Position numbers and translations under genes: made by a program. From a virus, in IMG/VR virus record IMGVR_UViG_3300037247_001116, positions 38,659 through 102,658 of that record: a stretch of DNA of 64,000 nucleotides. One strand, 5' to 3'. How positions within the stretch are numbered: the first letter of the stretch is position 1; each line of letters begins with the position of its first letter. Shown here piece after piece: positions 6,759-48,196 of this stretch. Below the pieces are notes generated by a model. That model had not been told where the DNA came from and did not search any database. It was given only the letters and a program-made list of their open reading frames with translations.

Positions 6759-6761
6759 ACT

Positions 6762-7070: not shown

Positions 7071-7071
7071 A

Positions 7072-8418
7072 ATGCCATTTCTTAAAAAAAGCAATAATGC
7101 TCAATCAACTATCAATCAAGTGGGTGGTCTTACCCTTTTAGACACAGAGTTAATTGTAACAGATGCTTCCAGTTTTCCAGCAACAGGTGACTTTTTACTG
7201 ACGGTTTGGAATAGTGAAACACATCCTGACCCAACTGATGATGTCGGCAGAGAAATTATTTTAGTAACTGCTGTGGCTGGAAACACATTTACAATAGTAC
7301 GTGGTCAAGAAGACACAGTTGCCAGTTTACATGCTAACGGCACAATTGTTGCAATGCTTATTACAGCAGGTACATTTGAGGAAATTGAACAAGCAATACC
7401 AGCTAGTAGTCATGATCAAAATACTGATACGATTTTACAAACAGCAGGACTCATACTAGACCAGAGCCAATTACTTTTTGATACAGATGCAAAGTTCTAT
7501 AACACTAATACAGGCGTTCAAATCGCTCAATCTTTCATACCTGCTAACTCTGGAAATTTATCAAGGATTATTGTAAAGGTATTTAGAGCAAGTGGTGGCG
7601 CAAACGATCTTATTGTAGAATTAAGAGGAACTTCGGCTGGTCTGCCTACGGCGGGAGTTTTGGCGACAGAAACAATTCTAGCATCATCGTTAGAACAAGG
7701 CGAATGGGTAGATTTAACGATAGATTTTTCTTCCCCATTTTCGGTGACGACTGGAACTACTTACGCTGTTGTTTTTAGACAAGAAGGAAGTGAACAATAT
7801 TATTTTGAAAATGAGCCGTTTGTAAACCCTTATCCTAATGGATCAGCTCAAGTAAAAACTGGTGCAGGTGCTTGGATACCCGATGTGGCAGATGATCTTT
7901 ATTTTCAGATTTTTACCTTTATTGATGCCACCGATTTAATCAACAATGGAACTTTAAAAAGTGATTTAGATGCTGATGGAGGAATTCTAGTTGATGGTCG
8001 TGACCTATCAGTTGATGGCGCGGCACAAGATTCGCATATTGCTGATCAAAACAACCCTCATAATGTTAGCAAAACAAATGTCGGGTTAAGCAATGTTCCA
8101 GATTTAGACACAACTGATGCTGTCAACCATGTTTCTGATACAAATAATCCACATGGCGTTGAGGCTGACCAGATAGCGACTGATGATAGCGGTGTTACAG
8201 TTCAAGAAGCCTTAGATGCTTTAGAGGCTGGCGGAGGACAACTTGAAAGTTTGATGGCACAAGATATAGATGGAGATTTAAGACCGATTGATGATTATAT
8301 TCTTCAAGGCGGAAGCTTTGAATTAGATTCAAACTATGCTTTACAACCAAAAACTACTATTGAAGAAGATTTGTTTTTTGAATATGATATTAATAACGAT
8401 TTAATACCAAAGGAATAA
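7072..8418 (+). CDS. Fibre-type virion protein with NPH motifs
   Basis: 448 residues. Residues 1-115 form a beta-rich N-terminal domain typical of fibre attachment (FLLTVWNS, ITAGTFEEIE). The middle (about 130-290) is a beta domain resembling a carbohydrate-binding sandwich (SGNLSRIIVKVFRA, TGTTYAVVFRQ). Residues 320-375 carry tail-fibre repeats (NNPHNVSKTNVGL, NNPHGV). It sits between portal and capsid genes, which is unusual, and the next gene shares the same repeats. It is probably a receptor-binding or head/neck fibre. Confidence 0.65.
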   Translation: MPFLKKSNNAQSTINQVGGLTLLDTELIVTDASSFPATGDFLLTVWNSETHPDPTDDVGREIILVTAVAGNTFTIVRGQEDTVASLHANGTIVAMLITAGTFEEIEQAIPASSHDQNTDTILQTAGLILDQSQLLFDTDAKFYNTNTGVQIAQSFIPANSGNLSRIIVKVFRASGGANDLIVELRGTSAGLPTAGVLATETILASSLEQGEWVDLTIDFSSPFSVTTGTTYAVVFRQEGSEQYYFENEPFVNPYPNGSAQVKTGAGAWIPDVADDLYFQIFTFIDATDLINNGTLKSDLDADGGILVDGRDLSVDGAAQDSHIADQNNPHNVSKTNVGLSNVPDLDTTDAVNHVSDTNNPHGVEADQIATDDSGVTVQEALDALEAGGGQLESLMAQDIDGDLRPIDDYILQGGSFELDSNYALQPKTTIEEDLFFEYDINNDLIPKE

Positions 8419-10931: not shown

Positions 10932-10932
10932 A

Positions 10933-11670
10933 ATGGCTGGTAATAACGTAGACACAAAATTGCTTTTACATATGAACGGTGCTGATGAATCTATTACATT
11001 TATTGATTCAAGAGCAACAGGAACTCCGCATACCGTAACTGCCGTGGGCAATGCTCAGATAGATACGGCACAGTCAGTTTTTGGTGGAGCAAGCGGTTTA
11101 TTCGACGGCGCGGGGGATTATTTATCTATGCCCGATTCGCCTGATTGGGATGTATTCGCGAGTAGCATTGATGATTGGACTTTGGATGCACATATTAGAA
11201 GGATTGGCGATGGAGGCAATACATCAGAGCCTATATTTTCTCAAGCAAATACAACCGCTTCTATGTATTGGCGTTTTGAACATCACAGATCTAGGGGGCT
11301 TCGCATTGTGGTATATGATTCAGGACAGATTATTGTCACTGCTGATCTTACTCCTTTATCCAATGATACTTGGTATCACATTGCTATGTGTAAAGTGGGT
11401 AGTTTATATGGAATATACATCGACGGAACACAAGTATCTTTTGTTGATGATAGTTCTACACTTAGTATAGCGGGATTATTCGCTATCGGAACACGACCAC
11501 AATCTTCACCTGTTGCTTTTTTTAATGGAAACATAGACGAGGCAAGAGTTCAAAAGAGCAATTATTTTACCGCATCGCCAAATGTGGGTTTATCTGATAC
11601 AATTGTTGTTCCTACAGAAGAATATTCGCTTGCAGGGTTTCCACATAGTCAAGGATATATTGTTTCTTAA
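10933..11670 (+). CDS. LamG (concanavalin A-like) virion protein
   Basis: 245 residues, nearly all one LamG/concanavalin-like jelly roll: LLLHMNGADES at the start, a DTAQSVFGGASGLFDG strand, DTWYHIAM near 152, IYIDG near 168 and GNIDEARV near 220. These folds bind glycans or act as spacers on virions. The N-terminal domain of the tail-tip gene at 29975 is a close paralogue (DTAQSVFGGASGLFEG). It follows two fibre genes and may be part of the same appendage. Confidence 0.75.
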   Translation: MAGNNVDTKLLLHMNGADESITFIDSRATGTPHTVTAVGNAQIDTAQSVFGGASGLFDGAGDYLSMPDSPDWDVFASSIDDWTLDAHIRRIGDGGNTSEPIFSQANTTASMYWRFEHHRSRGLRIVVYDSGQIIVTADLTPLSNDTWYHIAMCKVGSLYGIYIDGTQVSFVDDSSTLSIAGLFAIGTRPQSSPVAFFNGNIDEARVQKSNYFTASPNVGLSDTIVVPTEEYSLAGFPHSQGYIVS

Positions 11671-12220: not shown

Positions 12221-13726
12221 ATGAAACAAAAAATTTATTCAAAATCAGTAACTGTAGCTAAAGAAACAGAACACATCAAAGCCGTTGCAGAAAAGTTAGG
12301 TATTGTTTTGCCTTCCACTCATACTGCTTTATTCCAAAGCGTTTTTGCCCCTCTTGATGAGGCGAACTTAAACGGTCATCGTCTTGACAGTAAAATTGTT
12401 GATGTTGAAATTAAAAAAATGATTGGCGCACAAGCTAATCTTGAACACATGGGTTATGGATGGATTGTTGGTGTTATATTAGATGCTTGGGTAAATGATT
12501 CAAACGAAATAGAAATCATTTATTCTTTTGCTAAAAATATTTATAAAGATGAATATGTATTGGCATTAGAAGCAATGGCTAACGGTGACCTCGCAGTTTC
12601 ATTTGAACTTGATGCTGAAATTGCAGGACAGGAAAAATTAGCTGACGGAACACTTTTACTTCATGATTACAGTTTTACAGGCGTTGGAGTATTGATCCAG
12701 AACCCCCCTGCATATGCAAATGCAAAAACATATGAATTTGCAAACGCGATTAAAGACAGATTGCAAGAATCAACAAATAAAGAATTTGTCTTTGCTTCAC
12801 AATTGGAAAAAACATGTGATAATGTTCTTTCTAATACCAATGAAAAAACAGAAACCCCCGCTTTGACTGAATCGAAGATTGATTCAGATAAAAATGATAT
12901 AAAAGACAAAGATTTAGAAAACAAAACAAGTAAAGAGGGAGGAAACACAAAAATGGAATTAACAAAAGAACAAAAAGCCGAAATCGAGAACCTTAGAGCA
13001 GAGCTTGGTGATTTAGCAAAAGATGTTTCTGATGAAGAATTGCTTGACGAAACTATCGTTGCCGAACTTCGCACTAAAGCCGAAGAAGCAAGAGTTACAC
13101 AGTTAGCTTATCAGGTAGACGTTGTAGAAGTCCGTACATATTCGTTGGTTGAAAAAGACGGAGTTGACACTATCAAAGAAACAGTTGAAATTGTCAAAAG
13201 AATCGACTACAATTCTCAGCTTGCCGCAGTTGCTAAAGTTGAAGAACTTGAAGCAACATTGTCCGCTAAAGATTCAGAAATTGAATCTGTTAGGGAAAAT
13301 GCGGAAAAGGTTGGCAAAGCAAAAGTAGAGTTGAAAGACAATACATTTGCCGCTGATTTTACTGATGAGGATTATCTTGATGATGTCAAGGTTGCAAAGG
13401 CTATTCAGGATAAAACTGATGCCGAGGTTATTGCCACTCGCAAAGAAGAATTGAAAGACAATAAATATGCCACTGACTTTTCAGATGAAGATTATCTGGA
13501 TGAAACGAAAGTTGAGTTAGCGGTTGTTAAAGCGGAAAAAGACGAATTAGTTGCTAAAGTTCCAGCAGAAGAAGTAGTTGCAACAACCGTTGTTGAAAAA
13601 CCAACACCGATGAATGCTGGCGTAAAGACTGAAACTACTGATGAGAATAAATCAGTGGAAGTTATGGCTTCAATTCGAAAAGCAAATAAAGATGGAAGAG
13701 AAGCAATCAAAGTTTATACAAAATAA
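12221..13726 (+). CDS. Prohead protease fused to scaffold (putative)
   Basis: ATG 12221 was chosen over TTG 12209 because GGAG (12211-12214) lies 6 nt before it. 501 residues. The N-terminal 200 residues look like a capsid-maturation protease: NGHRLDSKIV, EHMGYGWIVGV, IIYSFAKNIY and GDLAVSFELD strands. The catalytic residues are not certain. From about 245 on it is acidic and helical like a scaffold, with two 40-residue repeats (ADFTDEDYLDD and TDFSDEDYLDE). It precedes the capsid gene, as protease/scaffold genes do. A nested start gives scaffold alone. Confidence 0.6.
   Translation: MKQKIYSKSVTVAKETEHIKAVAEKLGIVLPSTHTALFQSVFAPLDEANLNGHRLDSKIVDVEIKKMIGAQANLEHMGYGWIVGVILDAWVNDSNEIEIIYSFAKNIYKDEYVLALEAMANGDLAVSFELDAEIAGQEKLADGTLLLHDYSFTGVGVLIQNPPAYANAKTYEFANAIKDRLQESTNKEFVFASQLEKTCDNVLSNTNEKTETPALTESKIDSDKNDIKDKDLENKTSKEGGNTKMELTKEQKAEIENLRAELGDLAKDVSDEELLDETIVAELRTKAEEARVTQLAYQVDVVEVRTYSLVEKDGVDTIKETVEIVKRIDYNSQLAAVAKVEELEATLSAKDSEIESVRENAEKVGKAKVELKDNTFAADFTDEDYLDDVKVAKAIQDKTDAEVIATRKEELKDNKYATDFSDEDYLDETKVELAVVKAEKDELVAKVPAEEVVATTVVEKPTPMNAGVKTETTDENKSVEVMASIRKANKDGREAIKVYTK
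12953..13726 (+). CDS. Nested scaffold protein (internal start in protease gene)
   Basis: An internal ATG at 12953, in frame with the protease, is preceded by GGGAGG (12937-12942). Translation from it gives a 257-residue, Glu/Lys/Asp-rich helical protein starting MELTKEQKAEIENLRAELG. In lambda-type phages the scaffold is made from an internal start of the protease gene in the same way. The linker just upstream (DKNDIKDKDLENK) is low-complexity, as at a domain border. The start-to-site distance of 10 nt is slightly long. Confidence 0.55.
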   Translation: MELTKEQKAEIENLRAELGDLAKDVSDEELLDETIVAELRTKAEEARVTQLAYQVDVVEVRTYSLVEKDGVDTIKETVEIVKRIDYNSQLAAVAKVEELEATLSAKDSEIESVRENAEKVGKAKVELKDNTFAADFTDEDYLDDVKVAKAIQDKTDAEVIATRKEELKDNKYATDFSDEDYLDETKVELAVVKAEKDELVAKVPAEEVVATTVVEKPTPMNAGVKTETTDENKSVEVMASIRKANKDGREAIKVYTK

Positions 13727-35795: not shown

Positions 35796-37001
35796 TTAAA
35801 CAATTATCTTTTTCAAAATATTTTTATATGTATACTCTTGCAAAACCATTTGTTGTAATTCTGCAACTGATATGTTGTTTTTTAATTTTAAAGTGTTATA
35901 ATTAATTTTATCTTTAGGATAATAATGATCAAAAAATTGTTTTAAAACTTCTTTATTAACATAATTTAATTCTAAAAGTAAATCAAATCTCCCTGGTCGA
36001 ATTAAAGCTTTATCTAATGTTTTAATATGATTCGTTGTTCCTATTAAAATTCTTCCATGAACATTTGCCAATCCATCTAAACTATTTAAAATATCTGATA
36101 AATTTAATAGAGAAAATCCTTCAAAAATATCGGTTTGTTCTTTAGATTTCCCTTTCTTTGTTCGTTTAGAAACAATACTGTTTGTATCTATATCTTCGAT
36201 AACAATGATTGATTTTTCTGATATTGTACTGAATGCTTTCTCTATCGATCCTAATTTTGAAGGTGATAAATAATAAATAGCATAGTTTAAATGACTGGCT
36301 AAACATTTAATAAGGCTTGTCTTCCCTGTACCTGGCGAACCATACAATAAAATTCCGAGTTGATAAGGAATTCCAGAATTAATATACCATTGTTCTTTAT
36401 TGGTAAATTTATTTAATGAATTTAAAATTAAATCCTTCTTTTGTTTTTCAATAAAAAGAGTCTTAAAAGGTCTTTTTTTCAAATCTCTAATAAAACACCA
36501 ACAATCTTCGCCCATCTTATGAAAAGCTATTGTGTCTTTTTTCTGTTTTCTGGTATCTTTTATTCCTTGAATCATGTCATCAAATAATTTTCTTGAACGA
36601 CCCAATTTTGTCAAAACAATTATTTCTTTAAGATTACTAGATAACGACTCTTTTTCTTTAGTATAATTTATAAATAAAAATGATCTTTTATACCAAATTA
36701 GATGAGTACCATATCCCAAACTTAAATCAAAGTCAACATTGCTACCCCATCGCCCATTATTTAATTTAAATGTTCTAAATTTCCTATTACGATTATATTG
36801 TTGTATAAATTTTAATAGTTCATAAAATACTTCATCACTATTTGCAATAATTAAATCTGTCGTGAGTTGTCTTTTTAAAAACCCAAAAAGTTTTAAAGGA
36901 ACATCTTTAATCCAAAAAGAAAGTAAGCCGAACCCACCAACTCCTATTCCAGCCATTAACCACTCATTTTCTTGAATAAAACTGAAAAGATTTTCTAACA
37001 T
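35796..37001 (-). CDS. BCS1-like membrane AAA ATPase
   Basis: 401 residues with the order of BCS1-type proteins: a single N-terminal membrane segment (MAGIGVGGFGLLSFWI, about 16-31), a BCS1-type middle, the FHKMGEDCW and LKKRPFKTL segments, then the AAA core. The core has Walker A GSPGTGKT (221-228), Walker B IIVIEDID (265-272), a sensor-like GTTNH (321-325) and the arginine motif RPGRFD (335-340). BCS1 ATPases thread a folded client across a membrane; client and role here are unknown. Such genes occur in some bacteria and phages. Confidence 0.85.
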   Translation of the reverse strand: MLENLFSFIQENEWLMAGIGVGGFGLLSFWIKDVPLKLFGFLKRQLTTDLIIANSDEVFYELLKFIQQYNRNRKFRTFKLNNGRWGSNVDFDLSLGYGTHLIWYKRSFLFINYTKEKESLSSNLKEIIVLTKLGRSRKLFDDMIQGIKDTRKQKKDTIAFHKMGEDCWCFIRDLKKRPFKTLFIEKQKKDLILNSLNKFTNKEQWYINSGIPYQLGILLYGSPGTGKTSLIKCLASHLNYAIYYLSPSKLGSIEKAFSTISEKSIIVIEDIDTNSIVSKRTKKGKSKEQTDIFEGFSLLNLSDILNSLDGLANVHGRILIGTTNHIKTLDKALIRPGRFDLLLELNYVNKEVLKQFFDHYYPKDKINYNTLKLKNNISVAELQQMVLQEYTYKNILKKIIV

Positions 37002-37686: not shown

Positions 37687-38373
37687 TTATTTAAAATATA
37701 TCCAGTATATTACAAATATTTGAATTCCCATAACAAAAATCCATCCACTCACATGAATAAACTTTTTAAACCCTTTTGACAATTTCTTCTCTATCATATA
37801 ATACCAAATCAATCCCCCATCAAGAGGAACAATAGGTATTAAATTCGAAAGACCACAGAACAAATTCAGTATAGACAATTGCAATAAAAATATGTTTATC
37901 GGTATATATCTAAAAATACCTTCTACCACAGTGTAATCTTGAGTAAACATCGCCTTTAACATTATCCAATCTATTTTTAATCCTAACGAAACAGATCCGT
38001 AATGAACCATATATATCCCTAAAGCCAATAAAATATTAACTGTTACGCCCGCCACCAAAACAGCAAATTTATGCGCGTACCTGTGGGCTAAAAAATCATC
38101 TTTATCCTTCCTTGTATTCATGCCCTTTAAATTGCAATATCCACCCAATAGGACAGGACTTAGCCTATAATCGATACCTTTGATGGTTTTATGCAAATAC
38201 GGCTTGCCAAAGCCTATTGAGAAGGCTTTTACCCCTATTCCACAGCGTAAAGCAACCAATAAATGCGCTAATTCATGAAGTGAGACAGTAATTAGCAAAC
38301 AGATCAAAAAAGTGCCTAATCCTTGATAATTTTCGACAAGCCAGCTACCTATATTTAAGAACATTTCGACCAT
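37687..38373 (-). CDS. Site-2 (M50) intramembrane metalloprotease
   Basis: 228 residues from ATG 38373; TTG 38385 is possible. The zinc-binding HELAH (residues 33-37) sits at the end of a hydrophobic helix, and the second metal motif LDG (PIVPLDGG, about 181-188) lies in a later membrane helix. GFGKPY and the LGGYCNLKG turn near 77-84 match S2P/RseP folds. There is no PDZ domain. S2P enzymes cut a membrane protein inside the bilayer, often releasing a regulator. Its substrate is unknown. Confidence 0.85.
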   Translation of the reverse strand: MVEMFLNIGSWLVENYQGLGTFLICLLITVSLHELAHLLVALRCGIGVKAFSIGFGKPYLHKTIKGIDYRLSPVLLGGYCNLKGMNTRKDKDDFLAHRYAHKFAVLVAGVTVNILLALGIYMVHYGSVSLGLKIDWIMLKAMFTQDYTVVEGIFRYIPINIFLLQLSILNLFCGLSNLIPIVPLDGGLIWYYMIEKKLSKGFKKFIHVSGWIFVMGIQIFVIYWIYFK

Positions 38374-38419
38374 TTTAGACCCCAATCAATTCAGGATTTT
38401 CGTGTATGTTTCCGTTATC

Positions 38420-38809
38420 TTACCAATCTATATCTATAATATAATCTCCTGCATCTATTAAACCTTTTTTATGTAGGTCGTTAGCAACTTCATGAACATC
38501 AGGATAAAAATTTCTATCCCAAAACAAACTGATAGAACAAGCACCATTCTCATGTCCTATTGCTTTTTTAGGGTCACGTTTTAACCATGCTTTAAAATTA
38601 ACACCCATTCCATCACCATTAATCTTTTCTGGTATAGAATCAGGCATATCTATATCTTCAGAACAATCTGAAGGAATAGTCATTCCAAACGTGCCTCTAT
38701 CTTTACACCCATCTTGCTGTTGAAAATTGTAAGGTCTACCATAAGTATCAGAAACTAATTGATCCCAATCGCTTACATCTATCATTTTTATATTTCTTAT
38801 TTTTATCAT
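38420..38809 (-). CDS. Unknown 129-residue protein
   Basis: 129 residues, Asp/Gly-rich (IDVSDWDQLVSDTYG, QQQDGCKDRGTFGM). AGGG precedes the first ATG. It follows the glycosyltransferase gene and overlaps its stop (TAATG). Not recognised. Confidence 0.45.
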   Translation of the reverse strand: MIKIRNIKMIDVSDWDQLVSDTYGRPYNFQQQDGCKDRGTFGMTIPSDCSEDIDMPDSIPEKINGDGMGVNFKAWLKRDPKKAIGHENGACSISLFWDRNFYPDVHEVANDLHKKGLIDAGDYIIDIDW

Positions 38810-39705
38810 TATTTTCCCTTAATTTTTGTGCGTTCTAAATGTATATATTTTACCCAACTTTTTAATTCCCACTTTAGTTTAAGGTACTCTTTCCCCATTC
38901 GCATATTCTTATTTCGTAACTGTTTGTATTTATTGTCTATACAAGGTGCGTATTCTCCTTCACAATAATTTGTCCAACCGACTTTATACCCCTCTTGTTT
39001 GTATCTCCAAAAGAAATCTTCATGTTCAGCCATTTTTAAATTATCATCCCACCTAACGTCCAAAAGCGATTTAGTTGATGCTAAAAAGAAATTGCGAACA
39101 ATATCACAATGAAAAATATTTATAACTCTTCCAACCATCGGCGATGTTCCATCACCACATATCCAGTCTTCTGATGGCTTCATATTATCCAGCATTGCGT
39201 ATTCTTCATCGGGTCGTTCAGTTTTATCAATAAAATCTAATATAAATGAATTTTTTAAATCTAATTTTGCTTCCCAACCTATTCTGTCTTTTAATTCAAA
39301 ACCCAACAAATCAATTCCAAATCCGCGATTGTAACTTAAAAACCTTGTTAAACAACTCACCTGTTGCATGGATTCTGTAAACTTAATTGAGTCAGCCCCG
39401 ATCAGGCAATAATTAACACCTAATTCATGTGCCTTTTCAACTAATTTATTTCTTGCATAAGACAATCCACAATCAAAGGGTAATTGCACAACTTTGATAT
39501 GGTCGTCATTTAGAGTTCTGGTATGAGCATAGGCACATGCTGTTTCGTAAAATACGTGTTTTTCAACACTATAATCATCCAGATGGTTTTGATCGCCTAT
39601 CAAAACAACGAAATCATCACTCCAATTATCAATGATGGAATTTAATACTTCCATTAATATGTCGTCTTTTAGAATTGTGGGTATGAGTATAGCTATTTTA
39701 TTCAT
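38809..39705 (-). CDS. GT2-family glycosyltransferase
   Basis: The start at 39705 was chosen, with GGGGTGA before it. 298 residues. The GT-A front IAILIPTILKD, the FDCGLSYARNKLVEKA segment near 78 and a later acidic E-H-E-D segment near 234 (MAEHEDFFWRY) match family 2. The metal-binding position reads LIGADSI, not D-x-D. It is probably a soluble cytoplasmic enzyme adding a sugar to a glycan. It closely resembles the middle domain of the gene at 39929 (FNSGLSYNRNYLVEK, VEHTDHFLR). Confidence 0.8.
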   Translation of the reverse strand: MNKIAILIPTILKDDILMEVLNSIIDNWSDDFVVLIGDQNHLDDYSVEKHVFYETACAYAHTRTLNDDHIKVVQLPFDCGLSYARNKLVEKAHELGVNYCLIGADSIKFTESMQQVSCLTRFLSYNRGFGIDLLGFELKDRIGWEAKLDLKNSFILDFIDKTERPDEEYAMLDNMKPSEDWICGDGTSPMVGRVINIFHCDIVRNFFLASTKSLLDVRWDDNLKMAEHEDFFWRYKQEGYKVGWTNYCEGEYAPCIDNKYKQLRNKNMRMGKEYLKLKWELKSWVKYIHLERTKIKGK

Positions 39706-39898
39706 CTTCACCCCTGTTTGGTCTTAGATAATAACATGCTTGTTCTACAGCTATTCCGTATTCCAACGAATCATCCATTCCATTCATAACTAAATCAATT
39801 GAATCCCATCTCCTTAATAGCTCATAAATAACTTTATGAGAATACGGATAATGCTTTGCTAAAACTTTTGCCAATTCTTGTTTTAATGATTCTCTCAT
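39698..39898 (-). CDS. Small helical protein, paralogue of 62984 gene
   Basis: 66 residues with AGGTGA before the ATG and a promoter 19 nt upstream. It is helical: AKHYPYSHKVIYELL, then DLVMNGMDDSLEYGIAVEQ. The gene at 62984 has the same plan (AKYCPFSSKELLSGL). Both are unknown. It lies in the sugar cassette and overlaps the glycosyltransferase gene by 8 nt. Confidence 0.5.
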   Translation of the reverse strand: MRESLKQELAKVLAKHYPYSHKVIYELLRRWDSIDLVMNGMDDSLEYGIAVEQACYYLRPNRGEDE

Positions 39899-39916
39899 TA
39901 TTCACCTTTTGTTATA

Positions 39917-39945
39917 AGTATACCATAATTAATCTTCTGTGTCAA
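39917..39945 (-). promoter_or_regulatory. Sigma70-type promoter inside a gene end
   Basis: Minus strand: TTGACA (39945-39940), 17 nt, TATACT (39922-39917) with TG before the -10. The -35 lies in the last codons of the gene at 39929. A transcript would start near 39910, only about 12 nt before ATG 39898, giving a short leader. It belongs to the shared promoter family. Confidence 0.8.
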
Positions 39946-42676
39946 GTCCAAACACCCTCCACTTTTGTCCAGATCCGTACAGATTACTTAAATAAGGAAG
40001 GCTTGGGAATGGAATATTCCTAGCAACTCCAAAAAAGCCTATCTGTTTTGTTTGTGCAGGATAAGACCCACAAATATTAACTTTCAATTTTAAATTTAAT
40101 TGTTTAATGATCTCAGATGCCTTTTTTAAATCTTTCACAGCAAGATATAATTCGTCTGGTTTAATTTTTAATTCACCAAACCGCACAGCATCTAAACAAG
40201 TTGTTTTTATTAAACAATATTCAACCTTTTCTCTTTGGAAATAAGAATCTAACAATCTGAATTCTTCCTTGATTGATGAATTTTGCGGATTAATATTTGG
40301 GTCTTTATTTGCGACCACTTTAAAAATCGGGTTCTTTTCGCCTAGCTCCTCTTTGTAAAGTGTTTCATAAATTTGTAATAAATTTTGTGGTGTGTAAACT
40401 TCTATTCTCCAAGTTTTTAAAATATTCTTTCTCCAATCATCAATATTTTCAGGATGCAGTATAGAATCAAGAAGGGTGGATTCTAATGAATTTATGTCTG
40501 TTTTTAAAGCTGGGAACCATTGTCCACTATAGTTTGTTAATGGAACAGCATTTAATAATGCCGCCTCTATAGTTGTGTTATGAGCTTTTTCATAATTATC
40601 ATCCACATCATCAATCAAGATATCACAAAGTGCTTTTTCCTGTAAATTTTCTTCATAAGGCAAGCCCTCAATCAATTTAAAATTAAAACAAATATCACTT
40701 CTCAATTTCAATTTTTTAATAATATTCATTACATCGTCATATCGCTTACTTCCTATCCCAACATTTTCATGATTCGTAGGTGAAAACCCTATCGTAATGG
40801 GAGATTCAGCTTTCTTTATAAAATTTAATCCGAATAACATCTTGACTAAAGGCACATATGTCGTCGAGATATCGTTAAACATTTTCTTCTGCAACGGTTG
40901 ATCAGCAACAGTCACTGTACCAAATGATTTTAACTTATCTAAATAATTCCTATTGAATTCACTATCTTTATATTGCAAAGAATTCGTCAGATTATATACT
41001 GTGCTTATCACTCTCTTCCCTTTTAAATAGGGTTCGATCTCTTTCCAAGAATCGTGGTGAATATGTACAATATCTGCTTCTTGAATTGCTTTAATACATT
41101 CTGCTTCCTCATCTTCCCAAAATAAGTCATGTGGAAATGCACGATATGGTATTGAACCTATTTTTTTGCTATATCCATGTCCTAAAATATAACGCGATTC
41201 AAATTTGCCCGAATATGCATTGAGGAGTTTTGACAGTTCATATCCACTATTGGCACATGGAATCCTTGCTATTTGCACAACCTTGATTTTCTTATAGTCA
41301 GGTTCTTTACAAGCAATATCATTGATATTTTTTTCATATACTCTTATAAAATGTGCTTCGTCTTTCAATCCCCATTTATCTAAAAACATCTTTGTATATT
41401 CAGGATTGCTTCTAAAAGATTTGTATTCTTTTGAAACACTAGATGTGATATGTTTACATGTGGTATTTGGATAATGGCACACTTTCCATTTATTTGATTG
41501 TTTAATTCTTAAAAAATGATCCGTATGTTCTACTAATTTAAGATCGTTATCCAATGGTATTTCTTCCAAAACCTCTCGTTTTGCTAAAAAGAAATTTAAA
41601 ACAATATCTGTATAAAAATATATGAGTTCTTTATGTTTTTTTGTTGTATTATATACATGAACCTTCTGCGCCTCATTTAATTTTTGAATTCTAAATAAAT
41701 AACGTCCGCGCTCTTTTTCTTCAAAAACCAAATCAGCATGATAGGGAGGTCTGTTCTCTATATTACCACCAACAATCCCATTGTTTTCTCTGTGATTTAA
41801 TATTTCAAGAAAAGCACCAAGATCTGTATTGGCTGTAAATTCGAAATCGTCGTCAACAATCATCACATATGGCTCAACACTTTTCTCAACCAAATAATTC
41901 CTATTATATGAAAGTCCAGAGTTAAAAGGAGTCTTATATACTTTATGACCACCTTTTTCCAGTTTTTTATAAAATTCAGTCTTTGTTTCAGACCATTCTT
42001 TGTGACCTTGATCGGCAACATAAATCCTAACCCATTTCCTAAATGTATTATCACGATCACATCTTTTTAAAATAGAATCAACCGATTTCATTAACCGTTC
42101 ATCTCTTAAAAAAGTTGGAATCAAAATAGCGATGGTTCGATGGTCTTCATCAAATGATTGTAGTTTTGTATGACTCCATTTTGTGTCTGGTGTTTTCCAA
42201 TCACCATAATTTTCTGTAAGATGAGATTCTGGTTTACCAGGGATAGTAAACTTATGTTTTAAAAATTTAACTGTTTTTAGTGGATAGATATTCTCTTTTG
42301 CGAATTTCATTCCAGATTCGATATTGATACCGCTTTGTGCTTTATTGCCCAAGTATGCGGATGAATACATTATATTATTTTTTTCTGTATAAAAGAATAA
42401 ATCAATATGTGCTTTATCATTTTCATATAATGCGATCTCTGTCCTCCAAAGTCTTTTGATTTTTAAAACATCTTGAGATTCTAAAAGATTCCTAACTTTC
42501 CAATAATCTTTCTGATTCAGACCTATATCAATGTCATGAGTATCATGTTCTAAGAAGTTCTGTTCTCTTATCGCCCCCAATAAAGTACCATATGCTAACC
42601 AATATTCAATATTGTTATCAGTCAGTAGTGTTTTGAGTTTCATTAAAAGTTTTAATTGTGCTGTCATTATCGCCAT
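39929..42676 (-). CDS. Multidomain LicD - GT2 - GT4-like sugar/phosphate transferase
   Basis: 915 residues (start 42676 or ATG 42667). Residues 1-150 are a LicD-type nucleotidyltransferase fold (YGTLLGAIREQNF, HDTHDIDIGL). Residues 180-440 are GT2 (TIAILIPTFLRDE, VDDDFEF, VEHTDHFLR). Residues 455-780 look like a GT-B/GT4 domain (VVQIARIPCANSGYEL, ADIVHIHHDSW, IGFSPTNH). The end (about 790-915) is another nucleotidyltransferase-like domain (LLDSYFQREKVEYCLIKTTC). Such proteins add sugar phosphates or phospho-alcohols to surface glycans. Substrates are unknown. Confidence 0.75.
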   Translation of the reverse strand: MAIMTAQLKLLMKLKTLLTDNNIEYWLAYGTLLGAIREQNFLEHDTHDIDIGLNQKDYWKVRNLLESQDVLKIKRLWRTEIALYENDKAHIDLFFYTEKNNIMYSSAYLGNKAQSGINIESGMKFAKENIYPLKTVKFLKHKFTIPGKPESHLTENYGDWKTPDTKWSHTKLQSFDEDHRTIAILIPTFLRDERLMKSVDSILKRCDRDNTFRKWVRIYVADQGHKEWSETKTEFYKKLEKGGHKVYKTPFNSGLSYNRNYLVEKSVEPYVMIVDDDFEFTANTDLGAFLEILNHRENNGIVGGNIENRPPYHADLVFEEKERGRYLFRIQKLNEAQKVHVYNTTKKHKELIYFYTDIVLNFFLAKREVLEEIPLDNDLKLVEHTDHFLRIKQSNKWKVCHYPNTTCKHITSSVSKEYKSFRSNPEYTKMFLDKWGLKDEAHFIRVYEKNINDIACKEPDYKKIKVVQIARIPCANSGYELSKLLNAYSGKFESRYILGHGYSKKIGSIPYRAFPHDLFWEDEEAECIKAIQEADIVHIHHDSWKEIEPYLKGKRVISTVYNLTNSLQYKDSEFNRNYLDKLKSFGTVTVADQPLQKKMFNDISTTYVPLVKMLFGLNFIKKAESPITIGFSPTNHENVGIGSKRYDDVMNIIKKLKLRSDICFNFKLIEGLPYEENLQEKALCDILIDDVDDNYEKAHNTTIEAALLNAVPLTNYSGQWFPALKTDINSLESTLLDSILHPENIDDWRKNILKTWRIEVYTPQNLLQIYETLYKEELGEKNPIFKVVANKDPNINPQNSSIKEEFRLLDSYFQREKVEYCLIKTTCLDAVRFGELKIKPDELYLAVKDLKKASEIIKQLNLKLKVNICGSYPAQTKQIGFFGVARNIPFPSLPYLSNLYGSGQKWRVFGLDTED

Positions 42677-42677
42677 C

Positions 42678-43286
42678 CTATTTATAGTTATGCATCCATT
42701 TTTTCACTTTAAATGATTTTGTTTTTGGCTTAGATGTTATCCACTCTTTTCCATAAAGATGTTTTAAAAGTAATTTGGAATTTTTAGGAGCAACCATATC
42801 AATATCCCTTATTTTTTCTGAAGTAAAAGGAACAATTTCTGACTTGTCTATTTCCCCATATAAGTGAGGGGCTAAATAGAATCCATTGTTTATTACCCAT
42901 GAGCTAAATACATCAACATAAAGCAAGTCATCGGGGGTTCTTACATGCATTTGCCCTGCGAAATTTAGATCTAAATCTTTTACTGTAGGATGTAATATTC
43001 CCTTTCTGTTTATCCAAATCTTCCCTAACAGCCCATGTTTGATCAATACAGCCGCGATATAATATAGCTCTTGTCTAATTTCAGGCATTGTTGAATATTT
43101 AGAAATGTACGCGATATCAATGTCATTATCATGCCCAATAACATTGTTCTCTCTTATCGCCCCCAGGAGCGTTCCGTAGCACATATATGCGTGTACACCA
43201 CACTTGGTCTTGAAGAATTTAATCAATTCTTTCGTAGCCAAGAGATGTTTATAGATAGTTTCTGGTTTTCGATGCGAAAAAGCCAT
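42678..43286 (-). CDS. LicD-family phosphotransferase
   Basis: 202 residues. LicD core: CYGTLLGAIRENNVIGHDNDIDIAY near 36-60 carries the conserved Gly and Asp pair, then a longer beta part (VDVFSSWVINNGFY). LicD enzymes transfer phosphocholine, and fukutin-type relatives transfer ribitol phosphate, from a CDP-alcohol to a glycan. It lies between a cytidylyltransferase and the 915-residue protein, which fits a CDP-alcohol pathway. The gap to each neighbour is 1-2 nt. Confidence 0.75.
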   Translation of the reverse strand: MAFSHRKPETIYKHLLATKELIKFFKTKCGVHAYMCYGTLLGAIRENNVIGHDNDIDIAYISKYSTMPEIRQELYYIAAVLIKHGLLGKIWINRKGILHPTVKDLDLNFAGQMHVRTPDDLLYVDVFSSWVINNGFYLAPHLYGEIDKSEIVPFTSEKIRDIDMVAPKNSKLLLKHLYGKEWITSKPKTKSFKVKKWMHNYK

Positions 43287-43288
43287 AC

Positions 43289-43741
43289 TTACCTCTCGTT
43301 TCTTTTATTTAGATTCTCAGTGATTTTATCAGACATTTCTATGATATCTTTTTTGATTTTCGAAGTTGAAAGTCTTTTTGTGTATGGAATCCACACCATT
43401 TTGTTATTATCTCTTAACCAATTAATATCATCATTCTCATAATTGTTTTCCCAATCATTACCTAAAGCAAATAAAGCGTTGTCGGTATCTTTAAAAAGTC
43501 TTAAATCTACTAAACTTATCTGTTTATAAACAACATCTACACATCTAAGTTCTTTGATAATCGCGGCTCTATCTTCAAGACAAACCACAGGTTTTATACC
43601 CTTATATGATTCGATGAGTTCATCTGTAGACACACCAACGACTAAAACACTGCCTAATTTTTTTGCTTCTAAAAGAATATTCAGATGACCAAAATGAAAT
43701 AGGTCAAAACATCCGCTTGTGAAAATAATTTTTCTATTCAA
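43289..43741 (-). CDS. TagD-like cytidylyltransferase
   Basis: 150 residues. The signature GCFDLFHFGHLNIL (residues 10-23) with HFGH, a VVGVSTDELI strand, an R-containing helix and a RLSTSKIK end match the glycerol-3-phosphate / choline-phosphate / RfaE-type cytidylyltransferases. It makes CDP- or ADP-linked small alcohols; which one cannot be told. It overlaps the SDR gene by 8 nt. No choline kinase is seen nearby. Confidence 0.8.
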   Translation of the reverse strand: MNRKIIFTSGCFDLFHFGHLNILLEAKKLGSVLVVGVSTDELIESYKGIKPVVCLEDRAAIIKELRCVDVVYKQISLVDLRLFKDTDNALFALGNDWENNYENDDINWLRDNNKMVWIPYTKRLSTSKIKKDIIEMSDKITENLNKRNER

Positions 43742-44456
43742 GGTGGAATCCTCCGTCTACACAAATTGTTTGACCGTTCACATAATCGTTTTCGATAATG
43801 AATTGACAGGCTTTTGCGACTTCCTCTTTTGTGCCTAACCTTCTCATCGTGATCTGTTTCTTAATTCTATCTATTTGTTCTTTGCTTTTATCTACATGCC
43901 ACTTTGTTGCTATAAATCCTGGTGCGACGGTATTGACAGTTATCTTCCTTTTTCCCAAATCTCGCGCCAAATATTTAGTTAAAATTTCTAAACTTCCTTT
44001 AGACACTCCGTAAGGGATAGATACCGAGTTTGCTACATGTCCAGTAACACTTCCTATAAAAATAATTCTTTTCTTAATAAGAGGTAAAAGTTTCTGTATT
44101 AAAAAGAATGGATGTGTTAAATTCATATTCATAACATCATTCCACTCCTTCATAGAAATTTCTTCCAAAGGTTTTCTACATGTAGCACCGACATTCAAAA
44201 TAAGATTATCAACTTCTAAATTATTTAGAATCAAGAAATCATATAGTGTGGTTATATTTGTAACAACAGATAGATCTATATTGTGCAATATTTCAAACTG
44301 AGAATAATCTTTAGAAACTTCGTTATATAATTTCTTGCATTTCTTTTTATCCCTGCCTGTAAAAATGACCTTATGCCCTTTCATAAGACAAGTCATTCCT
44401 ATTTGTTTGCCTATCCCACTTGTAGAGCCTGTGATTAATGTGGTTTCTTTAATCAT
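43734..44456 (-). CDS. SDR-family oxidoreductase
   Basis: 240 residues. NAD(P)-binding TGSTSGIG (residues 9-16), LNVGATCRK in place of the usual NAG strand end, IGSVTG with the catalytic Ser, and YGVSK with the Tyr-Lys pair. The C terminus G-FIATKW and VDGG are FabG-like. It may reduce a sugar phosphate to the polyol that the TagD-like enzyme activates, or may make a lipid or sugar precursor. It overlaps both neighbours by 8 nt. Confidence 0.8.
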   Translation of the reverse strand: MIKETTLITGSTSGIGKQIGMTCLMKGHKVIFTGRDKKKCKKLYNEVSKDYSQFEILHNIDLSVVTNITTLYDFLILNNLEVDNLILNVGATCRKPLEEISMKEWNDVMNMNLTHPFFLIQKLLPLIKKRIIFIGSVTGHVANSVSIPYGVSKGSLEILTKYLARDLGKRKITVNTVAPGFIATKWHVDKSKEQIDRIKKQITMRRLGTKEEVAKACQFIIENDYVNGQTICVDGGFHLE

Positions 44457-44940
44457 ATAATACCAATCCTATTCTGTAAATATTGTTTTTAACTGGAAAT
44501 GTAACATCGACATTATATTGTTTCATTAATTTAACCACGTTCACTCCTGTGGCTTCCAATGGCACGATAGCATTTTGTGGTTGTCTACAAGGAAACGCGC
44601 AATCTTTTGGACACAATTTGCATGAGCCAGCACCAAATAGGGCTATCAAAAAATGTCCGTCAGCAAATAACATTTCTCTTTCCTTTAATAAATGGTGATG
44701 TATTGCTAAACTGCTCTCTTTACCAACTATTTTCCAATCCGCTAAATCTGCACATTCAAATGTGTCATACCAAATAACACCGTGCTTATATTGTCTTAAT
44801 AGTTTTTCATAATATTCGACAGATTCGGTGTGTGGTGGACAAGTCGCTTTGAAGTCATAACGCTTACAACTTTTGCACATCTCTATGACTTTATTATCAA
44901 ATGCGAGAATCTTTGGATTTATAACTATGCTTTTCATCAT
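44449..44940 (-). CDS. DUF2284-like Cys-rich metal-binding protein
   Basis: 163 residues. N-terminal CKSCKRYDFKATCPPH and C-terminal GAGSCKLCPKDCAFPCRQP give six to seven Cys in the spacing of DUF2284-type predicted metal-binding proteins. DUF2284 is known mainly from anaerobes and methanogens. It is unusual in a phage and is placed at the head of the sugar cassette. Possibly a metal or redox helper. Confidence 0.65.
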   Translation of the reverse strand: MMKSIVINPKILAFDNKVIEMCKSCKRYDFKATCPPHTESVEYYEKLLRQYKHGVIWYDTFECADLADWKIVGKESSLAIHHHLLKEREMLFADGHFLIALFGAGSCKLCPKDCAFPCRQPQNAIVPLEATGVNVVKLMKQYNVDVTFPVKNNIYRIGLVLYD

Positions 44941-45185
44941 TATTCAACCCCATTTAAAAGTTCTATGATTTGATTTTCAAATATGTGAAAATTTTCATGT
45001 GGAAAACTGAATTTACCACTTTCCAATCTTATCAATTTATAATATGATGATAACCTCGCATCGCCACTTTTATATACTGTTAAACAAAGTTTCTCCTTTG
45101 AATATGATGCACTACTTTTATCTCCGCTATGTGAGTATAAACTATAGCCTAATTTTTTAGCTTCTTCTTCGCCTGGAAAATTCAT
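44940..45185 (-). CDS. Unknown 81-residue protein
   Basis: 81 residues. N-terminal FPGEEEAKKLGYSLYS, middle basic/aromatic, acidic end. It touches the stop of its neighbour (TAATG). Not recognised. Confidence 0.45.
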   Translation of the reverse strand: MNFPGEEEAKKLGYSLYSHSGDKSSASYSKEKLCLTVYKSGDARLSSYYKLIRLESGKFSFPHENFHIFENQIIELLNGVE

Positions 45186-45187
45186 AA

Positions 45188-45610
45188 TTACCTTATGTAA
45201 ATATCTATTGGAATTTTTTTAGTTATTGCTAACGAAATTGAATGCTTAGTGCCTACACTCGTTCCGTTCCAAAAAGCTATTACTTTATCTGCTTCATCAA
45301 TAATTAATTGATTCCTAATAAACCCTGCCCTTTTACCATATCTATCCCAATCAGGTAATAAAATGATTTTCTTAAATTGTTTTGGTGTTGTAGAATAACT
45401 ATATGCAATTTTATTCCATTCATCAATAGTTTTTTCTGCAAAAATATCAACACCCTTTGCTCCACCACTTATTAAAATATCTCCACCTGAAAATCCATCG
45501 ATTAGAATATAATGAGCAAATCTTTCTTTGTCTTTATCAACAATATATTTTCCACTTTTATAATCATAAATTAAAAAGAAATCTCTACTTCCGACAACGG
45601 CTATTTTCAT
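45188..45610 (-). CDS. SLOG / YspA-like nucleotide-binding protein
   Basis: 140 residues with a Rossmann-like fold: front VVGSRDF (5-11), LISGGAKGVDIFAEK near 47, LPDWDRYGKRAGFIRN near 86, and IAFWNGTSVGTKHS near 112. These match the YspA/DUF2493 SLOG family, which binds nucleotide-derived signals. Such domains occur in phages and in defence loci. The ligand is unknown. It overlaps its upstream neighbour by 4 nt. Confidence 0.75.
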   Translation of the reverse strand: MKIAVVGSRDFFLIYDYKSGKYIVDKDKERFAHYILIDGFSGGDILISGGAKGVDIFAEKTIDEWNKIAYSYSTTPKQFKKIILLPDWDRYGKRAGFIRNQLIIDEADKVIAFWNGTSVGTKHSISLAITKKIPIDIYIR

Positions 45611-45789
45611 ATTCTGTTCTCCCTAATATCTGAAATTCTGCCATTTATTTTCATAATTTCGCATAAAAGCATTTCTGGACATACAGTTCCAACCATAGAT
45701 TGTATTAATTTATATCTAATTTTAGTTTGTTGGATTAATTTATCCTTATCTTTGAGAATTAGACATTTATCTAATGATATCATTTTCAT
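45607..45789 (-). CDS. Small basic protein, unknown
   Basis: 60 residues, helical, Ile/Lys-rich (LILKDKDKLIQQTKIRYKLI), two Cys near the middle. 4-nt overlaps on both sides support it as a real gene. No family recognised. Confidence 0.45.
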   Translation of the reverse strand: MKMISLDKCLILKDKDKLIQQTKIRYKLIQSMVGTVCPEMLLCEIMKINGRISDIRENRI

Positions 45790-46076
45790 AAGTTTATCCT
45801 TGTAAAATTTTGAATGTCTGGAACATGAACTATTAAAACCTTGCCCTGAATTAATTCATTGCTAAAAAGATTGCAAAGAGCTTCTTGTTTTTCTTTAGCA
45901 GTATACGCTATGCGTGACGAATCAAATTCAAGTCGGGGGTCCTCTTTTAAAACCATTATAAGCACTCGTTTATTGCAATCTAATTGTAGCCTGATGGCAT
46001 CAATTAATTCTTGATGAATAGGTATTTCCCTAAAATATGCAGAAATTGTTTCCCAAGTTCTATGATCTCTACTCAT
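45786..46076 (-). CDS. Nucleotidyltransferase-like fragment, unknown
   Basis: 96 residues. RVLIMVLKEDP near 37-47 followed by a YTAKEKQEALCNLF helix and VLIVHVPDIQN resembles the middle of an adenylyl- or cytidylyltransferase. It lacks the N-terminal HxGH motif. It could be a short non-enzymatic relative. Overlaps of 4 and 8 nt with its neighbours. Confidence 0.4.
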   Translation of the reverse strand: MSRDHRTWETISAYFREIPIHQELIDAIRLQLDCNKRVLIMVLKEDPRLEFDSSRIAYTAKEKQEALCNLFSNELIQGKVLIVHVPDIQNFTRINL

Positions 46077-46251
46077 TTTCCACCTCGCAATTTAAAAAGT
46101 TTAGGATAGCCTCATGATATTTATCTGTAATAACCCCTTTCAGTTCTTTTTCAATTGATAAATCACCGTTCCTCTTGTATATATCATTTAATTGATTATC
46201 CATGCTCATTAATAGCCCTTTTACACAATCTAGCCTTTGAAATTTATCCAT
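46069..46251 (-). CDS. Small helical protein, unknown
   Basis: 60 residues, helical and charged (DCVKGLLMSMDNQLNDIY). AAGGAG lies before the ATG. It overlaps the next gene by 8 nt. Not recognised. Confidence 0.45.
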   Translation of the reverse strand: MDKFQRLDCVKGLLMSMDNQLNDIYKRNGDLSIEKELKGVITDKYHEAILNFLNCEVENE

Positions 46252-46277
46252 TATTTTTCTCCTTTATAATTTTCATT

Positions 46278-46526
46278 TTATTCCTCTATTATTAATGTGG
46301 CTCTTTTACATTCGCCTGGTTTTAACCCCATATGTTTTCCTTCGGGCAGTGGTAGAGGTTGATTTGGGTATTCTCCACTCCATCCAATACCACCTTCACC
46401 ATTAACTATTTCATCGCAAAATTCTATTTCATATTGTTCTGGTTTATGTACATGTATACAAGTTTCAGAAAAAGAAGGATACGCGGGTCGAGACGTTCTT
46501 GTTATCCATATTCTTAATTTTTTCAT
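46278..46526 (-). CDS. Small beta-rich protein, unknown
   Basis: ATG 46526 was chosen, with GGAG just before it. 82 residues: IWITRTSRPAY, then HVHKPEQYEIEF and a Gly/Pro-rich stretch (GGIGWSGEYPNQPLPLPEG). Not recognised. It overlaps the upstream membrane gene by 4 nt. Confidence 0.45.
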   Translation of the reverse strand: MKKLRIWITRTSRPAYPSFSETCIHVHKPEQYEIEFCDEIVNGEGGIGWSGEYPNQPLPLPEGKHMGLKPGECKRATLIIEE

Positions 46527-46795
46527 TGTTTCTCCTTCGGTAATTTGCCTACCCAAATCCATTCGTCTTTTTTATTAGACCACTTTTTTAATCCATAATA
46601 ATTAATAACAATTAATAGCACTGATAATGCAAATAAACTAATACCTTCAAAACCCATTAATATCGCGAACACAACATAACAAGCATTTCCAGCCACCTGA
46701 CAATGCCAACCTAATATTGATTTCTTGGCTAAAAGCAATGCTCCTAAGAGAAAAGCCACATTGCCTAACCAGCCAAATATAGATAATATAGTCAT
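46523..46795 (-). CDS. Three-helix membrane protein, PnuC/SemiSWEET-like
   Basis: 90 residues with about three membrane helices (LSIFGWLGNVAFLLGALLLA, then a VFAILMGF part, then LFALSVLLIVINYYGLKKW). GWHCQVAGNACY and the NYYGLKKW end resemble half of a PnuC-type vitamin transporter or a SemiSWEET. A pore or small-molecule channel is possible. It ends in a Lys/Glu tail. Confidence 0.5.
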   Translation of the reverse strand: MTILSIFGWLGNVAFLLGALLLAKKSILGWHCQVAGNACYVVFAILMGFEGISLFALSVLLIVINYYGLKKWSNKKDEWIWVGKLPKEKQ

Positions 46796-46797
46796 TA

Positions 46798-47130
46798 TTA
46801 ACCTGCCTTTTTACTATCTAAGTTTTCTAGTTGTTTATTCAATTTTGTTAATCTATCACAAGAAGATATTTTCATCATTTCTTGTGCTGTATTGCAATGA
46901 TCGCAATCAATTCTATGTTCTTCTATCCTAGCCCCCAACAACTCGTTTTGATGTTGCTTGTCCTCTATTACCCCTTGCCTCCACATTATAACCCTATATT
47001 CCTTCTCCACCCTCTCTAGTGAGGATTTGAGGAAGGCTTTGATTTCACAAGCAAACGGTGGGTGATATACCCAATCCCCATTCACTCTTGGAAACTTCTC
47101 ATCAAACTCTTTCATGATTTTATTTATCAT
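46798..47130 (-). CDS. Helical protein of a repeated phage family
   Basis: ATG 47130 was chosen, with GGAG before it. 110 residues. It begins KIMKEFDEKFPRV and has EIKAFLKSSLERVEKEYR near 33-50, a pattern also seen in the interrupted gene at 55482 (VIKEFREKFV, IESFLQQAL). A C-x2-C with nearby His (CDHCNTAQEM) near the end may bind zinc. Confidence 0.5.
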   Translation of the reverse strand: MINKIMKEFDEKFPRVNGDWVYHPPFACEIKAFLKSSLERVEKEYRVIMWRQGVIEDKQHQNELLGARIEEHRIDCDHCNTAQEMMKISSCDRLTKLNKQLENLDSKKAG

Positions 47131-47224
47131 TTTTATCTCCTTTTCTAAGAAGGTAAAACACATACGCTGGGATCAAAAAAATTACAATCGCGATACATAG
47201 CATTGCTATTATTAAACTTTTCAT
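47120..47224 (-). CDS. 34-residue membrane peptide
   Basis: ATG 47224 to TAA at 47120-47122: a single strongly hydrophobic helix (SLIIAMLCIAIVIFLIPAYV) followed by a basic-charged tail (LRKGDKNDK). Overlaps the upstream gene (ATGA) and the next one by 11 nt. Typical of small phage membrane peptides; function unknown. Confidence 0.5.
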   Translation of the reverse strand: MKSLIIAMLCIAIVIFLIPAYVFYLLRKGDKNDK

Positions 47225-47385
47225 TCTCTAAAATCACTTTCGAATTCTGGTTCCCATATCTTTTGAATTGATTCTGTAAATCCTGGGAATCGTTTATCTA
47301 GTTTAGTTAATAAATCTGACGCACAACAACCACCATCGGCTGTCATCATAATTTTTGCTATTTGAATGATTTCTTTTTTAGTCAT
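47221..47385 (-). CDS. Small helical protein, unknown
   Basis: 54 residues. N-terminal Lys/Ile-rich helix, a GGCCASDLL turn near 18-26, acidic end (EPEFESDFRE). ATG 47385 overlaps the stop of the 47378 gene. Its TGA overlaps the next ATG. GGAG lies before the start. Confidence 0.45.
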   Translation of the reverse strand: MTKKEIIQIAKIMMTADGGCCASDLLTKLDKRFPGFTESIQKIWEPEFESDFRE

Positions 47386-48196
47386 TAGTTTTCTCCGTTA
47401 TAAACTTTCTAATTTCTTCTCTTGCCTCATTTTGGTCGATATGATTATTCCAAACTCTCAAATAAAAGGAGTCGTAATCGATTTTTTCAAAAAGGTCTAT
47501 CTTTGATTCTGATGATACATTATAAATTTTAATATCTTTCAAATCTTTAAACGGCTTGAACCATTGGTTGTTTAAATTCTCTGTTCTATTATATGTTGAT
47601 GTTGAATATCTTTCGCCCTTCTTTGTTTGCTTTTTCCCAAGTCCTCTATGCATCAATTCCTCCCCAACCTTCTTCCCGTTCACATATAATTCTCTCTTTT
47701 TGTTTAAATCAATCACTCCTTGATAAAAATGTGTTTTGCCGTTAATTTCACAACAATCATAGCCCAATAAATAAATCTCTTTAAATCCTAATGCTATTGC
47801 CACCGTTAATGCCCAAATTCCTACAAGCTGATTGGAATATACCCCTTCTGAAAATGAATCCTTCCCTTTATATCCGCTAGACTTTTTAAGCAAAATAGTG
47901 TTTGGATGTGTAATATCATGTTGATGTCTTTTTAATACAGGACTTGTCTTCCCTATTAATAAAGGCACATGTTTCAAATTTTCATAATTATCTTCATAAA
48001 ATTCGGAATCAACAAATGATAAAAAAGTGGTTGCAGATCCATATTTAAAAAAGTGGTTTAATCCAATAGAATAATTGGTTTTAATAATGGTTTCTAATTT
48101 TATAGGAAGCCCATGATGATTTCTATAATATAAAGAATTCAAAAAAGGAATCGATGCACCTGCACCACAAATTATAATTGGTTTTGTAGTATCCAT
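47378..48196 (-). CDS. MptE/GT42-like protein (possible sialyltransferase fold)
   Basis: 272 residues. N-terminal IIICGAGASIPFLNSL (7-22), then NQLVGIWALTVAIALGFKEIYLLGYDCCE near 125-153, the pattern of the DUF115/MptE and GT42 sialyltransferase fold. The gene may transfer a sialic-acid-like or other sugar, or bind a pterin; sequence alone cannot decide. It belongs with the surface-sugar cassette 3-9 kb away. Confidence 0.55.
   Translation of the reverse strand: MDTTKPIIICGAGASIPFLNSLYYRNHHGLPIKLETIIKTNYSIGLNHFFKYGSATTFLSFVDSEFYEDNYENLKHVPLLIGKTSPVLKRHQHDITHPNTILLKKSSGYKGKDSFSEGVYSNQLVGIWALTVAIALGFKEIYLLGYDCCEINGKTHFYQGVIDLNKKRELYVNGKKVGEELMHRGLGKKQTKKGERYSTSTYNRTENLNNQWFKPFKDLKDIKIYNVSSESKIDLFEKIDYDSFYLRVWNNHIDQNEAREEIRKFITEKTND

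Follow-up and report, generated by a model that had tools for sequence, protein, structure and literature searches.

A tailed-phage gene cassette that probably couples CDP-alcohol synthesis to glycan assembly

The window analysed here, a stretch of 64,000 nucleotides, covers bases 38659-102658 of the 102,658-base virus record IMGVR_UViG_3300037247_001116 (IMG/VR), and matches to tape measure, baseplate wedge and DNA polymerase proteins in that record identify a real tailed phage. On the minus strand of the window lies a cassette which, read 5′ to 3′, comprises genes for a DUF2284 protein, a short-chain dehydrogenase/reductase (SDR), a TagD-like cytidylyltransferase, a LicD protein, a 915 amino acid (aa) LicD-GT2 fusion and a GT2-like glycosyltransferase (Table 1). 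A preliminary description made from the sequence alone had presented these as a near-continuous set with an MptE/GT42-like gene nearby, and every gene it named is indeed on that strand where it had been placed. The continuity holds for five genes, DUF2284 through the fusion, which form one run with overlapping or abutting starts and stops; the GT2-like gene follows after 217 bases and the GT42/MptE-like gene is 2.4 kb upstream of DUF2284. The SDR and DUF2284 genes share 8 bases, and the TagD-like gene begins with a TTG codon preceded by a strong GGAGG sequence. With a G+C content of 0.32 the cassette matches the phage as a whole (0.335), and a scan for promoters and terminators found no excess of sites over shuffled controls.

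Table 1. Predicted genes of the cassette and its neighbourhood, with the matches on which each assignment rests
Feature	Coordinates	Strand	Length (aa)	Basis
DUF2284 protein	44449..44940	-	163	PF10050, 1.9e-29, 102.9 bits (cut-off 25)
Short-chain dehydrogenase/reductase	43734..44456	-	240	PF13561, 1.6e-43, 149 bits (cut-off 27)
TagD/ECT-type cytidylyltransferase	43289..43741	-	150	PF01467, 3.9e-15, 56.7 bits (cut-off 21)
LicD/fukutin-type phosphotransferase, GTLLGAIRENNVIGHDNDIDI	42678..43286	-	202	PF04991, 30.7 bits (cut-off 22.6)
LicD-GT2 fusion	39929..42676	-	915	PF04991, 39 bits, 1.3e-9; PF00535, 43.2 bits, 5.2e-11; both over cut-off
GT2-like glycosyltransferase	38809..39711	-	300	PF00535, 0.0011, 19.3 bits, below cut-off (weak)
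GT42/MptE-like protein	47378..48196	-	272	PF01973, 24.1 bits, below cut-off; phrog_4603, 9.8e-11
AAA ATPase with BCS1 N-terminal domain	35796..37001	-		PF08740, 56 bits, over cut-off
Intramembrane peptidase M50 family protein	37687..38385	-		PF02163, 1.1e-31
Small SLOG/DprA-like protein	45188..45610	-		phrog_289, 1.7e-19; Pfam matches all below cut-off

The SDR motifs TGxxxGIG, Ser and YxxxK are intact in the alignment. The TagD-like protein carries the HxGH signature as HFGH, together with PYTKRLST, and falls in the family expected of it: in the Protein Data Bank (PDB) its profile matched ethanolamine-phosphate (2e-48) and glycerol-3-phosphate (3e-45) cytidylyltransferases as well as the Fom1 cytidylyltransferase domain (3.5e-32) and choline-phosphate cytidylyltransferases, and the window protein searched alone had the same leading matches (3elb, 1e-19; 1coz, 5e-18; 5x3d, 8e-12). 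The preliminary description had likened the SDR and cytidylyltransferase to Haemophilus Bcs1, which makes cytidine diphosphate (CDP)-ribitol. The cytidylyltransferase of Bcs1 and TarI is IspD-like and not of the HxGH type, and the IspD family is absent from the Pfam, NCBIfam and PDB matches of the cassette cytidylyltransferase. The analogy is thus one of logic only, and CDP-ribitol is not specially indicated because the phage enzyme is of the HxGH type. As had been reported, no choline kinase match was found among the cassette proteins.

The LicD assignment also stood, since PF04991 scores over its cut-off and the phage LicD profile matches human FKRP (6kaj, 1.5e-20). Both the LicD gene and the N-terminal LicD domain of the fusion contain the metal-binding motif GTLLG..RE....HD.DIDI and the downstream Asp, and LicD would transfer an alcohol-phosphate from a CDP-alcohol. 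The fusion is ordered as an active-type LicD domain (residues ~1-170; hhalign 9.4e-27), GT2 (~180-440), a GT-B-like region of unproven family (~460-780) and a degenerate LicD-like tail (~805-915), whose last ~110 residues align with LicD (hhalign probability 95%, P 3.6e-8); the DxD is present in the N-terminal LicD only and is missing from the tail. The middle region had been labelled GT4, which the searches did not confirm: there is an alternating beta/alpha pattern only, Pfam gave no match, profile comparison with three further GT-B-like phage proteins gave none either, and the model of the GT-B-like and C-terminal half (two-sequence alignment, pLDDT 44) was poor and not taken to a fold search. 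A single-sequence scan found no relatives of the whole fusion, and an alignment scan found only those of a sister phage (L071/L118). Nor did tblastn with two queries, a search that reaches close relatives only, find phage LicD in 50,697 GenBank phage records.

The linkage of TagD-like and LicD genes recurs in other viral contigs. A TagD-like alignment of two sequences, scanned against such contigs, returned 80 loci, and with the addition of loci fetched by LicD we assembled 82 viral loci with a TagD-like open reading frame (ORF), a set that includes near-duplicates, the LicD-fetched loci and a few LicD-like ORFs on the opposite strand. The TagD-like ORF is adjacent to or fused with LicD in 37 of the 82 and within three genes of it in 45. 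In one locus (L028) a single ORF of 1112 aa contains GT2, LicD and cytidylyltransferase domains. Because the cassette recurs in unrelated viral contigs we set aside chance co-location, and the same recurrent LicD/TagD linkage led us to set aside a role in DNA modification and, for the SDR, a plain fatty-acid (FabG) role. In another locus, L008, the LicD-GT2 gene (9096-11399) is split by an intein-like insert (~residues 363-690) with a Hint-like start (SVTEETPV), a LAGLIDADG_3 match (5.4e-9) and an HN end before S; the insertion site is a conserved EH-[ST]-[DE]-H stretch of the GT2 domain.

DUF2284 is the least familiar member of the cassette: the preliminary description assigned it no role, and the two open-access papers found to mention the family give none. 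Cysteines C22, C25, C34, C107, C110, C114 and C118 are invariant in an alignment of six phage sequences, and the protein is a predicted Fe-S or metal binder. When viral contigs were scanned for DUF2284 by itself, nine loci came back, of which three were new; with the window added and a near-duplicate pair reduced, these represent nine phages, and in all of them DUF2284 was seen only in SDR/TagD/LicD cassettes. LicD is in the cluster in every one, an SDR adjoins DUF2284 in eight, and in eight a TagD-like gene either adjoins DUF2284 or is one gene away; the ninth contig stops just past DUF2284.

Comparison with the sister phage L071 suggests modularity. The two phages share SbcC (67% identity), the MptE-like protein (52%), the GT2-like protein (57%) and the long fusion protein (59%), whereas their TagD (33%) and SDR (23%) are different proteins and L071 has no DUF2284; the window SDR and TagD are nearer to the versions in L007 and L008 (44-51%). 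Because L071 shares the surroundings and the fusion yet differs in these three genes, the SDR-DUF2284-TagD block behaves as a unit that can be swapped and that may set the alcohol, whereas LicD and the glycosyltransferases are retained. The homologous cassette of L071 also has two sulfotransferase-like genes (6653-7387 and 12233-12844, the second below cut-off), and sulfotransferase-like ORFs were seen by eye in L126 and L127; the L071 genes suggest that the glycans may be sulfated as well as phosphorylated.

The closest cellular relatives of the DUF2284 protein (~33% identity; 22 loci) come from Lachnospiraceae, Ruminococcus and their kin. In 19 of the 22 the DUF2284 gene directly precedes a nucleoside triphosphate (NTP) transferase gene, and in L100 a mobile element lies between the two; for the one such transferase that we checked, LicC was the sole solved relative (3.4e-10). 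Upstream of DUF2284 there is usually a pyridoxal phosphate (PLP) enzyme, PhnW-like or HisC/CobD-like, and often nearby are a TagD-Gfo/Idh fusion, a CDP-glycerol glycerophosphotransferase or LicD. Examples of the fusion, a TagD-type cytidylyltransferase joined to a Gfo/Idh/MocA oxidoreductase, are found at 4495-5832 in L107 and 8182-9567 in L108 (Lachnospiraceae, Ruminococcus), and form a fused parallel of the phage SDR and TagD pair. DUF2284 is thus the constant partner of a cytidylyltransferase, of one fold with an SDR in phages and of an unrelated fold with a PLP enzyme in cells. Because it is found beside a cytidylyltransferase in both phages and bacteria we tie it to CDP-alcohol synthesis, and a family without a function is so linked to this chemistry by two independent genomic contexts with non-homologous cytidylyltransferases. 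The simplest reading is that DUF2284 helps to supply a carbonyl or alcohol phosphate, which would then be reduced or aminated and activated with cytidine triphosphate (CTP).

We consider it probable that the cassette encodes a pathway in which CDP-alcohol synthesis feeds the assembly of a glycan. Starting from a host metabolite, the SDR and the Fe-S-type DUF2284 protein would make a phospho- (or phosphono-) alcohol, which the TagD-type enzyme would couple with CTP. The LicD domains would move the alcohol-phosphate from the CDP-alcohol to sugars put in place by GT2 and GT-B-like domains, both fused and neighbouring, yielding a phosphodiester-decorated glycan. The sequence itself supplies the families, the intact LicD, SDR and cytidylyltransferase motifs, the tight and recurrent linkage and the TagD-LicD-GT2 fusions in other phages; each enzyme activity, the alcohol and its acceptor, and the part played by DUF2284 are inferences. 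CDP-alcohol chemistry, as put forward in the preliminary description, accordingly fits the families, linkage and fusions, and only the ribitol/Bcs1 detail falls away.

Several results sit poorly with this pathway. L071 has no DUF2284 and most TagD-LicD loci lack both SDR and DUF2284, so neither is needed in general. A PDB fold search with the predicted DUF2284 structure (pLDDT 78) found no significant match (best E 0.05); a faint trend towards nitroreductase, CblD and QueG folds was not used as evidence. The TagD-like protein scores 73.8 bits against the curated TagD equivalog TIGR01518, whose cut-off is 165.4, and departs from the TagD motif R-TEGIST in that PYTKRLST has Tyr for Arg, as in Fom1. 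It scores slightly higher, 82.7 bits, against the HldE-type model TIGR02199, and PHROG 7878 bears the HldE name, which would favour an enzyme of the HldE/RfaE domain II type that supplies the glycosyltransferases with a nucleotide-activated sugar, the separate LicD donor being made by the host. Yet the HldE score too is far under its cut-off (181.5), ECT and TagD lead both the profile and the single-sequence PDB matches, and the gene is closely paired, in places fused, with LicD, a family in which the known enzymes take CDP donors; we judge this reading very unlikely. Since the protein fails both curated cut-offs, homology does not set the substrate. The Tyr residue, found in the PYT motif of 19 of 29 phage sequences, bears on a phosphonate route, in which the SDR would yield hydroxyethylphosphonate or a similar compound and a Fom1-like TagD-type enzyme would form its cytidine monophosphate (CMP) ester for LicD: the Fom1 domain is among the best solved relatives, the two share PYT-GIS where TagD has PRT-GIS, and a PhnW-like aminotransferase adjoins DUF2284 in cellular clusters. 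However, neither the phage record nor ten related viral records yielded a phosphoenolpyruvate (PEP) mutase, so the phosphonate would be host-derived, and the PEP mutase motif was not seen in the sequence retrieved around the cellular loci either. We regard the phosphonate route as improbable and prefer a CDP-alcohol pathway.

As to what is decorated, we lean slightly towards the phage's own particle, a target we consider quite possible, over the host surface. Genes for terminase, portal, major head, tail terminator, minor tail or tape measure proteins surround the cassette in L012, L126, L009, L010, L025, L028, L033, L040 and L004/L011, and because related cassettes sit inside virion operons, virion decoration is at least as likely as modification of the host surface. 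The cassette enzymes have no strong hydrophobic segment and look soluble, and no gene for a flippase or carrier-lipid enzyme was found in the cassette, in keeping with soluble enzymes that modify phage proteins at a late stage of infection. Counting against a virion target, these virion-operon cases (at least nine) were picked from the loci, with no count over all of them, and the window cassette itself lies outside the virion operon. The preliminary description had proposed the host surface, as Benler et al. did for LicD phages. In such a reading phospho-alcohol would be added to teichoic acid, lipopolysaccharide or capsule during infection so that a receptor is masked and other phages are excluded. 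Bacterial LicD and LicC/PntC systems do work on surface glycans (PMC6697681), the nearest cellular DUF2284 clusters contain surface-polymer genes, and superinfection exclusion has been proposed for LicD phages (PMC8008677). Set against this are the soluble-looking enzymes, the lack of flippase and carrier-lipid genes in the cassette, and the placement of relatives in head and tail operons, as expected of late virion-directed genes, although host lipid-linked glycans could still be used. The host surface is hence compatible with the data without being favoured, and we hold it as a tentative alternative. Phosphodiester-linked glycans on phage particles would, if real, matter for how phages adsorb, persist and are recognised by the immune system. 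The boldest combination, a previously unassigned Fe-S enzyme of phospho-alcohol synthesis with interchangeable partners (PLP enzyme or SDR; LicC- or TagD-type cytidylyltransferase) that phages use to cover their own particles with a teichoic-acid-like glycan attached through phosphodiesters, we put forward as unlikely but worth stating.

We found no description of TagD-LicD phage cassettes in the open-access literature. The nearest precedent comes from some Flandersviridae phages (Benler et al. 2021, PMC8008677), in which LicD with an IspD-family gene was presented as a novelty among phages; the authors suggested roles in modifying teichoic acid and in superinfection exclusion, and connected IspD with isoprenoid metabolism. 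There too a phage-borne LicD adjoins a gene of the cytidylyltransferase superfamily, but it is IspD-type rather than TagD-type, the pair sits in the replication module and no SDR, DUF2284 or LicD-glycosyltransferase fusion was described (PMC8008677). Our findings suggest that these LicD and IspD pairs are CDP-alcohol pathways, and the pair gains a reading as a single pathway. The reductase and cytidylyltransferase of H. influenzae Bcs1, the CDP-ribitol synthase, likewise lead to a CDP-polyol, but in one bifunctional protein that supplies the Bcs3 capsule polymerase and has no DUF2284 (PMC10299916). The CDP-6-D-glucitol pathway of Campylobacter jejuni HS5.17/HS5.18 has a separate SDR and cytidylyltransferase, with reduction that can come after CTP activation; its SDR has an extra N-terminal helix, and neither LicD nor DUF2284 is named (PMC10918830). 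ISPD-LicD fusions in bacteria, a clue that FKTN and FKRP use CDP-ribitol, have a counterpart in the phage TagD-LicD fusions, and on alpha-dystroglycan these LicD-type enzymes pass alcohol-phosphate from a CDP-alcohol to a glycan, although that system is eukaryotic, uses ribitol and has an IspD-type synthase (PMC4873967). LicC/PntC tailoring shares cytidylyl activation for surface tailoring (PMC6697681), and the Lachnospiraceae and Ruminococcus clusters share DUF2284 adjoining a cytidylyltransferase; both differ in pairing a LicC fold with a PLP enzyme where the phages have a TagD fold with an SDR. Cultured phages of Streptomyces, Arthrobacter and Vibrio and cyanophages also have HxGH nucleotidyltransferases, mostly by glycosyltransferase or sugar-nucleotide genes, but in the records examined neither LicD nor DUF2284 was detected within 6 kb.

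Of the flanking genes, the GT2-like gene is kept in L071 and in L008 (32%), and the GT42/MptE-like gene is near the cassette in both. The latter is likely to encode a glycosyltransferase: phrog_4603 is an alpha-2,3-sialyltransferase PHROG, and PDB GT42 sialyltransferases match at E of about 0.006 over 44 residues. The SLOG/DprA-like gene is two genes upstream of DUF2284. The AAA ATPase belongs to the family of the mitochondrial translocase Bcs1, which is unrelated to Haemophilus Bcs1, and an M50-like gene was seen by eye near the cassettes of L071, L007 and L132 as well.

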